From NCBI RefSeq assembly GCF_003987045.1, contig NZ_PIPZ01000001.1, positions 62,001-126,000 on the forward strand: a DNA stretch of 64,000 nt. Reading direction: 5' to 3'. The first letter of the stretch is position 1, and the number at the start of each line of letters is the position of its first letter. Of this stretch, positions 6,733 to 41,798 are shown piece by piece. Made by a program: the position numbers and the translations under genes. The stretch is from Pseudidiomarina marina. GTDB lineage: Bacteria > Pseudomonadota > Gammaproteobacteria > Enterobacterales > Alteromonadaceae. Under the pieces are notes generated by a model. It did no database searches, had not been told where the DNA came from, and was given only the letters and a program-made list of their open reading frames with translations.

Positions 6733-6957
6733 CGTTATTCGTTATTCGTTACTGGTTATTCGAAAAGACAAGTGCAAAAGCGTGTTTCGTTGTTCGTGCG
6801 CTACGCTCTTCGTCCGCTTCGCTGTTCGGTACTTCAACAACAATCTTGTTTCGGAATTTCTTTTGCTGCAAGGAACTTGCGTTCTTTGGCTTTAGTCTAA
6901 TCTTTAACGAATAACGAATAACGAATAACGAATAACGAATAACGAATAACGAATAAC
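6733..6957. repeat. Heptamer-repeat element, copy 1
   Basis: A 30-base left arm (6733-6762) made of GTTATTC/GTTACTG-type heptamers is followed by about 140 bases of unrelated spacer and then a right array with seven perfect tandem AACGAAT units (6906-6954). The left arm and right array are reverse complements, so transcript or single-stranded DNA could fold into a long hairpin. The spacer includes an AAAAGCGT block shared with the other two copies (20877-21024, 41512-41688). No protein-coding evidence: the frame across it only encodes low-complexity SLFVIRY repeats. The rest of the 6722-7013 interval holds nothing else I recognise. Confidence 0.9.
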
Positions 6958-20876: not shown

Positions 20877-21024
20877 CGTTATTGGTTATTCGTTACTCGT
20901 TATTCGAGAAAACGAAAAACCAAAAGCGTTGAATCCCGAAATCTCCGTCTCACTCCGTGAGCGGAGATTTTTCTTTTCCACGAATAACCAATAACGAATA
21001 ACCAATAACGAATAACCAATAACG
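20877..21024. repeat. Heptamer-repeat element, copy 2
   Basis: A 30-base left arm (20877-20906) of TTATTSG-type heptamers and a right array (20981-21024) of alternating CGAATAA and CCAATAA units face each other as reverse complements. The spacer again has AAAAGCGT and, in this copy, contains the terminator of the dipeptidase gene. The element starts 4 bases after the dipeptidase stop and ends just before the -35 box of the S10 operon. The interval 20874-21235 otherwise holds the S10 promoter and leader. Confidence 0.9.
20939..20976 (+). terminator. Terminator inside heptamer-repeat copy 2
   Basis: AAATCTCCG (20939-20947) pairs with CGGAGATTT (20962-20970) and, inside it, CTCAC (20949-20953) with GTGAG (20957-20961): a 14-bp stem with one bulged T and a TCC loop, followed by TTCTTTT. 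It would end the dipeptidase transcript before the S10 promoter. Confidence 0.85.
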
Positions 21025-21027
21025 ACG

Positions 21028-41313: not shown

Positions 41314-41390
41314 GCACTCGTAGCTCAACTGGATAGAGTACTCGGCTACGAACCGAGCGGTTGGAGGTTCGAGTCCTCCCGAGTGCGCCA
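41314..41390 (+). tRNA. tRNA-Arg (anticodon ACG), copy 1
   Basis: A 77-nt tRNA with acceptor GCACTCG/CGAGTGC, discriminator G and CCA. The anticodon stem CTCGG/CCGAG holds CTACGAA, giving ACG (read as ICG) for CGN codons. It lies 12 bases after tRNA-Ser. Confidence 0.97.
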
Positions 41391-41416
41391 TTTGTTGACA
41401 GTCAAAATTGAAATGC

Positions 41417-41493
41417 GCACTCGTAGCTCAACTGGATAGAGTACTCGGCTACGAACCGAGCGGTTGGAGGTTCGAGTCCTCCCGAGTGCGCCA
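41417..41493 (+). tRNA. tRNA-Arg (anticodon ACG), copy 2
   Basis: An exact 77-nt copy of the first tRNA-Arg, 26 bases downstream. Tandem identical copies raise the dose of this abundant tRNA. The CCA end is followed after 18 bases by a heptamer-repeat element. Confidence 0.97.
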
Positions 41494-41511: not shown

Positions 41512-41688
41512 CGTTAGTCGTTATTCGTTGTTGGTTATTCGTAAAAACAAAAACAAACACAACACCCTAAAAGCGTTTATCGTTATTCGATCGCTTCGCT
41601 TGTCGTTATTCGTTAAAACAATACACTAAAGACGAATAACGAATAATGAATAACGAATAACGAATAACGAATAACGAATAACGAATAT
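41512..41688. repeat. Heptamer-repeat element, copy 3
   Basis: A 30-base left arm (41512-41541) with the same layout as copies 1 and 2, a spacer with AAAAGCGT and two additional GTTATTCG segments, and a right array of eight CGAATAA-type units (41633-41688; one reads TGAATAA and the last CGAATAT). The arms are complementary. The rest of 41494-41798 is an A/T-rich leader for oadG in which I see no clear promoter. Confidence 0.9.
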
Positions 41689-41798
41689 CTCGCACTTATA
41701 TTGTCTATTTTTTTGCTAAACCCTGCCTGTAAATAAATTGTGTTATCCTGAAGTTAGATTAGGATTAAAACAACAAACTCAACAAAAGCAGGCGTTGC

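Follow-up and report, generated by a model that had tools for sequence, protein, structure and literature searches.

Inverted heptamer-array palindromes in Pseudidiomarina marina: a dispersed repeat family with largely conserved slots and switching occupants

Cyanobacterial STRRs are abundant intergenic direct heptamer repeats, and bacterial MITEs are small, multi-copy elements with inverted termini. The elements described here share with MITEs the inverted ends, the small size, and the many copies, but the sites read showed no target-site duplication, and 594 kb contained no cognate transposon. With STRRs, which the first-pass annotation had named as known heptamer tandem repeats, they have the unit size and nothing further in common: the STRR arrangement is a direct array without an inverted partner, and 32 of 53 clusters in the genome studied here are simple inverted pairs. 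There is also a likeness to REPINs and to GTAG/CGTC REPs, which the available text of PMC3116915 and PMC3733652, respectively, presents as dispersed, hairpin-forming inverted repeats that are short, lie between genes, have conserved arms around a variable spacer, and occur in mosaics. Unlike these, the present arms are NGHTRYT heptamer arrays without GTAG, the genome has no match to a Y1 transposase, and slots swap occupants, which the same parts of the two accounts do not mention; GTAG REPs do occur here, as an occupant type separate from the heptamer elements.

Three other systems, each as portrayed in the accessible part of its paper, combine palindromes or heptamers in other ways. Volvox organelle DNA contains palindromic repeats, including palindromes within palindromes, but these are organellar, have other sequences, and are not said there to have heptamer arms (PMC2670323). 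In the P6b region of the Nostoc tRNA-Leu intron, degenerate heptamers of variable copy number pair into one hairpin, a single intron stem-loop in contrast to a dispersed intergenic family (PMC3488679). Marine Beggiatoaceae carry abundant intergenic TAACTGA heptamers, in 169 direct sets and one indirect set (PMC4679880), whereas the present arms are inverted. As far as the available text of their papers goes, none of the five systems compared combines heptamer arms, conserved slots, and switching occupants, and no account of such elements in Idiomarina or Pseudidiomarina was among the matches listed from the open-access literature.

The window, the whole stretch of 64,000 nucleotides that was analyzed, sits in contig C1 of a Pseudidiomarina marina genome (G000; 2.41 Mb, 10 contigs). 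At each of three loci in it (sites 1 to 3), a GTTATTC-type left arm and a right arm of its reverse complement enclose an interior (Table 1). The first-pass annotation had recognized them as one design, and their arms and arrays, with 7.6, 5.9, and 8.0 copies on the right, are as it described. By eye, the interior of element 1 resembles the same-locus copies of genomes G023 and G011, and the array at this site is longer in G023 than in G000. The CTGTTATGCT adjoining its right arm is read as the putative −10 region of the next gene. The terminator-like hairpin of element 2 was matched by a scan at 20953-20966 and has a longer stem in the fold. Two tandem tRNA-Arg genes with the same anticodon (acg) lie at 41314-41493, ahead of element 3. 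From their translations, we take neighboring proteins to be RNase R, a dipeptidase, ribosomal protein S10, and oxaloacetate decarboxylase.

Table 1. Parts of the three elements (window coordinates) and clusters of mixed unit type
Feature	Position	Strand	Description
Element 1 left arm	6733..6762	+	30 nt; GTT type, ~4 heptamers; same spot occupied in G023 and G011
Element 1 interior	6763..6904		AAAAGCGT block, then GC-rich GTT-A palindrome pieces, then other sequence
Element 1 right arm	6905..6957	+	7.6 perfect heptamers; adjoins CTGTTATGCT
Element 2 left arm	20877..20906	+	30 nt; GTT type
Element 2 interior	20907..20979		Holds an ordinary intrinsic-terminator-like hairpin
Element 2 right arm	20980..21025	+	3.3 copies of a 14-mer, or 5.9 copies of AATAACC at 20983-21023
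Element 3 left arm	41512..41542	+	31 nt by TRF; GTT type
Element 3 interior	41543..41627		Contains a second left-arm-like block, AAAAGCGTTTATCGTTATTCG
Element 3 right arm	41628..41683 (array 41632-41687)	+	8.0 GTT-type copies
AATATC at outer edge of element 3 right arm	41684..41689	+	Candidate GAT-type relic
Mixed cluster	G000		GTT left arm, then GAT element
Mixed cluster	G000		GAT element, then GTT right arm
Mixed cluster	G000		GAT left arm, then GTT-A element
Mixed cluster	G000		GTT-left/GAT-right chimera
Mixed cluster	G000, contig C4		GTT element, then GAT right arm

A dispersed family of inverted heptamer arms

Arms detected independently over 593,745 b of G000 form 41 left-right pairs of inverted heptamer arrays. 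The units follow one skeleton, N-G-H-T-R-Y-T, and are of two types, GTT (CGTTATT) and GAT (AGATATT). The same type stands on both sides in 40 of the 41 pairs (31 GTT/GTT, 9 of the GAT/GCT class, and 1 mixed). Four units are the modal arm, on the left in 22/41 and on the right in 20/41. The fixed left arm of 30 nt proposed for the window loci thus survives as a mode and not as a constant, since the left run is 27 nt (four units minus one base) in 22/41 and ranges from 13 to 69. With a three-unit threshold, and after one stretch that was contained in another had been dropped, G000 yielded 53 clusters: 32 simple left-right pairs, 6 multi-arm clusters, and 15 single arms. Paired polarity, likewise noted at the window loci, describes most clusters but not the 15 single arms. 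The AAAAGCGT block lies between the arms at all three window loci and had been offered as a mark of the family, which it is not, being present between the arms in 3 of the 32 simple pairs.

These arrays exceed chance. A 23-nt array (≤2 mismatches) gave 90 + 119 overlapping placements (209 in total) in the 2.41-Mb genome and 0 for the reversed control. A tandem-period scan of 458,634 b, drawn from the window and from seven Pseudidiomarina genomes, found 59 arrays of period 7 and 41 of its harmonic, period 14; periods 4, 5, 8, 9, and 10 gave 0, period 6 gave 8, and periods 11, 12, and 13 gave 1, 2, and 1. Period-7 arms were present in 31 of 97 inverted repeats in 464 kb of G000, the other tested lags scoring 0 to 2 per stretch. 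The three window loci belong to a dispersed family of small palindromic intergenic repeats of about 60 to 230 bp, and the first-pass view of an element rather than simple slippage is borne out by the single unit type in 40/41 pairs and by switches of type that change both arms.

The interiors fall into several dispersed types, labeled here GTT-A, GTT-B, and GAT, and the element ends often read AAAAGCG...CGCTTTT. GTT-B interiors are regional: ten elements with a common core cluster within one 160-kb stretch of G000 (C3:60001-220000). A profile built from these ten cores had a single further, weak match elsewhere in G000 (434 kb); the stretches searched of G011, G012, G018, and G023 had none. 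Because the cores average 63% identity, either their spread was not recent or they change fast. A G012 element (locus 25317) has, by eye, the GTT-B end ACTCACG and scores below the profile threshold; GTT-B may thus be older.

Long hairpins, as foreseen in the first-pass annotation, are predicted by RNA folding of elements 1, 2, and 3 (z = −4.6, −8.8, and −5.7), and a GC-rich stem with a T-run occurs inside some elements. On the further proposal that the elements may end transcripts, gene context gave no clear bias. As placed by a simple gene caller, the 33 elements comprise 19 in tandem, 6 in divergent, and 5 in convergent spacers and 3 not cleanly intergenic, against 80 tandem, 33 divergent, and 11 convergent background spacers of ≥100 nt (convergent versus divergent, P = 0.11). 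By pattern match, a GCTT- or T-rich right tail is present in 13/41 elements, and no T-run follows the right arm at site 1. A terminator role is possible, but the gene context does not favor it, and any transcriptional effect would be secondary.

Covariation of each arm with its own partner was considered and rejected for the GTT type. Among the 20 of 41 pairs with both runs ≥27 nt, own partners matched at 23.65 of 27 positions and other partners at 23.88, the own-partner score being reached in 4,669 of 5,000 permutations with outer anchoring; inner and best registers likewise gave own partners no advantage. The GAT elements (6 in G000) looked slightly better matched to their own partners, in a comparison compromised by a filler value of −99 given to short arms and by arms having been detected via complementarity. 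At site 2, 13 of 25 species were tested. Complementarity to the own right arm ranged from 15 to 33, versus means of 9.7 to 20.8 for the right arms of others, but same-type partners equal or beat the own partner, and in 10 of the 13 the two windows overlap, which favors the own partner.

Conserved slots with switched occupants

G000 and G011, whose genes are 80 to 83% identical, were compared at 104 orthologous spacers. A paired element was scored where a left motif of two units had a right motif of two units after it; 8 spacers without a usable orthologue and spacers of <70 nt were left out. Paired elements were found in both genomes at 19 spacers, only in G000 at 4, only in G011 at 3, and in neither at 78 (Fisher P = 3.9e-14). 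Every G011 counterpart of the 23 G000 element spacers contains arm motifs, unpaired ones at the 4 G000-only spacers. Where G000 lacks motifs (65 spacers), G011 never has a paired element. At the 3 G011-only spacers, G000 has a GTAG REP (two) or an unpaired motif (one).

Among related species, slots largely keep their positions and change the type of their occupant, with both arms affected: the unit type differs at 12 of the 19 shared slots. Where switched loci were read by eye, the interiors also differ and the flanks are homologous to near the arms; interiors are alike at the same-type loci read. A stricter detector was applied to the same stretches from either genome, in a comparison that left out elements marked as without flank, rearranged (2), or not adjacent (1). 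Starting from G000, 9 elements were switched, 4 the same, and 4 not strict on contig C3 (n = 17), and 3, 2, and 1 on C1 (n = 6); starting from G011, the counts were 9, 4, and 3, with 1 without flank, on C3 (n = 17) and 3, 2, and 0, with 2 without flank, on C1 (n = 7). Flanks were aligned from 15 nt outside the arms. At 15 of 17 C3 loci, both flanks aligned to within 4 nt of this start, the exceptions with poorer flanks being loci 7432 and 98281. At one such junction, GGAGAGCAAAAGCG is followed by TTATTCG in G000 and by ATATTAG in G011.

More distant comparisons show further occupants. Against G012, the C3 elements were the same at 2 loci and switched at 1, with 11 slots having no strict heptamer element, 2 rearranged, and 1 without flank; five of these 11 slots hold a GTAG REP, and several more hold a GC-rich GTT-A hairpin. 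A GTAG-type REP (GTAGCCCGGCG...CGCCGGGCTAC) occupies some slots of heptamer elements in G012 and in the C3 stretch of G000. G000 carries GTAG REPs despite having no Y1 transposase match.

The orthologous loci of sites 1 to 3 were inspected by eye, using a mask that covered the GTT unit alone. At site 1, 3 of 26 genomes have the element (G000, G023, and G011). At site 2, 16 of 25 species have heptamer arrays or remnants to at least one side, 3 (G006, G010, and G022) have another hairpin, and 6 have neither. Site 2 units are GTT, GAT (G011, G012, G018, and G020, by eye), CGAACAT (G004), CAAGCAA (G005), or mixed (G002 and G009). Site 3 has an element in 6 of 24, GTT in G000 and GAT in G023, G011, G012, G018, and G020. 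The site 2 arrays of G005 and G004 are very long and perfect, and the G004 contig ends inside its array; such arrays may thus break assemblies.

Proposed turnover in place and its alternatives

A tree from 16 genes (23,029 columns) groups the genomes as ((G000,G023),G011),(G012,G018), with both internal branches at 100. Of 11 loci compared, 7 have the GTT type in G000 and the GAT type in both G023 and G011, so that GTT in G000 is derived by parsimony at these seven, two of which (61974 and 62526) match one single element in G023. The DNA between these two slots (G000 C3 121974-122675) was not found on the G023 contig, through either a deletion between elements or a draft-assembly fault. The opposite direction, GTT to GAT, is suggested at G011 locus 34169, where the end of a GTT arm lies outside a GAT element. 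Import of the C3 region was considered and set aside, since G000-G023 gene identity there (85.6%) is alike to that in C1 (86.0 and 85.1%).

Remnants of one type outside another, and nested elements, exist. G000 has five clusters of mixed type (Table 1), and in G012 a GTAG REP block sits within a GTT-A element; the multi-arm clusters of G011 (5) and G023 (6) are each of one type. The starts of contigs C1 and C4 have a common flank and one GTT element and diverge from just inside the right arm outwards. Because the flank of the C4 mixed cluster is also at the C1 start, without the GAT arm, recombination between copies may explain that cluster.

From the relics and nested cases we infer an insertion step. 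On sequence comparison, it is on balance probable that a copy of a non-autonomous palindrome inserts into the palindrome already resident in a slot and that the resident then loses its outer arms. Slippage involving heptamer arrays that resemble each other and A/T-rich tails would perhaps bring about this loss, and repeated rounds would result in turnover in place. The copying agent would act in trans and would be neither a Y1 (RAYT-type) transposase nor a reverse transcriptase of the present G000. More tentatively, the elements may spread almost only into palindrome-holding sites and overwrite the resident, with no detectable RAYT or reverse transcriptase, their arms enabling clean overwriting through many slippage registers. 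The small mobile or recombination-prone unit of the first-pass annotation is indirectly supported by dispersed interiors, nesting, and replacement in place, but no movement was seen: neither a transposition event nor a duplicated target site nor a clean empty site was among the loci read, and where element 1 stands, G024 has ~50 nt of other sequence. Reverse transcriptase is present in 7 of 26 genomes and was not found in G000. No autonomous partner was seen in 594 kb, about a quarter of G000; three arm pairs there are >450 nt apart, one of which joins two separate elements, and the other two have 601-nt interiors with no ORF of >118 aa.

Other processes might keep a slot and change its occupant. 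Selection for a hairpin, as a bidirectional terminator or transcript-end stabilizer, would allow many hairpins to serve and occupants to be swapped freely. The frequent AAAAGCG...CGCTTTT ends, the strong predicted folds of elements 1 to 3, the other hairpins at site 2 in G006, G010, and G022 (terminator-like by eye in the last two), and one switched slot where both species have a GC terminator-like stem of different sequence inside the arms are in keeping with such selection. Spacer orientation, the GCTT- or T-rich tails in 13/41, and the lack of own-partner preference in the 20 GTT pairs speak against it, and we regard it as rather unlikely. Homologous recombination through the flanks, moving slot alleles that differ among strains or species, would agree with syntenic flanks at 23/23 G000 slots compared with G011 and with the element common to the C1 and C4 contig starts. 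We judge it unlikely, as genes near slots show ordinary divergence and the origin of the alternative occupant and of the outside relics would be left unaccounted for.

Mutation in place, with slippage and hairpin-templated copying spreading a new unit through both arms and no movement between loci, could draw on the common skeleton, on the expansion of the site 1 array in G023, and on mixed-unit arms that match unit by unit at site 2 in G002 and G009 (by eye). We find it very unlikely, because interiors are unlike at switched loci read and alike at same-type loci, GTT-B and GAT interiors recur at several loci, and relics of one type lie outside complete elements of the other. Mobilization of REP-type doublets by a RAYT transposase is scarcely credible: intergenic elements whose two conserved arms are inverted around a variable spacer recall REPINs, in the available part of PMC3116915, and some slots are also used by GTAG REPs, but the heptamer arms are without GTAG, and PF01797 (Y1 transposase) has 0 matches in G000 and none in G023, G024, or 4 more of the 26 genomes, G000, G023 (88% complete), and G024 being rich in heptamer arrays.

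Bacterial spacers are usually taken as regulatory or as repeat debris. In the present case, a hairpin keeps its place and has its sequence replaced wholesale, which makes the kept slot separable from an interchangeable occupant. If residents are the targets of newcomers, as insertion into resident palindromes would have it, genomes could carry fast-changing repeats at little harm, and the clade would be a natural experiment in the spread of non-autonomous palindromes.

Occurrence in other genomes

The 23-mer (≤1 mismatch) occurs in 17 of the 25 other genomes in the genus, in none of 9 genomes from other genera of the family, and in 1 of 24 further genomes from the order. Since G004, G005, G009, and G019 (100 kb each) have one heptamer element in total, the system appears dense only in some species. 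An order-wide occurrence of the skeleton was considered and discarded: the degenerate pattern has matches in 87 of 394 genomes, but its reversed control also matches in ~50 (hand count), so the signal outside the genus is weak, and inverted heptamer pairs were near 1 of 29 non-own matches.

An exact-match scan for two GTT arms 55 to 85 nt apart returned 18 contigs, of which 4 are Pseudidiomarina, 1 is from a gammaproteobacterial MAG with a flank resembling that of one Pseudidiomarina contig, and 13 are Saprospiraceae (8, 4, and 1 in three MAGs). The Saprospiraceae elements are of similar design in another phylum. Their arms consist of GTTATTC or GTTATTG units and in most cases enclose a different core, itself inverted, like GTGTGGTAAC.CTTGGC, and the same MAGs contain other inverted arrays (GTGAGTC, GAGTTAT, GATGAAT, and GTGTTTT-like) of period 7 and, by eye, 8.
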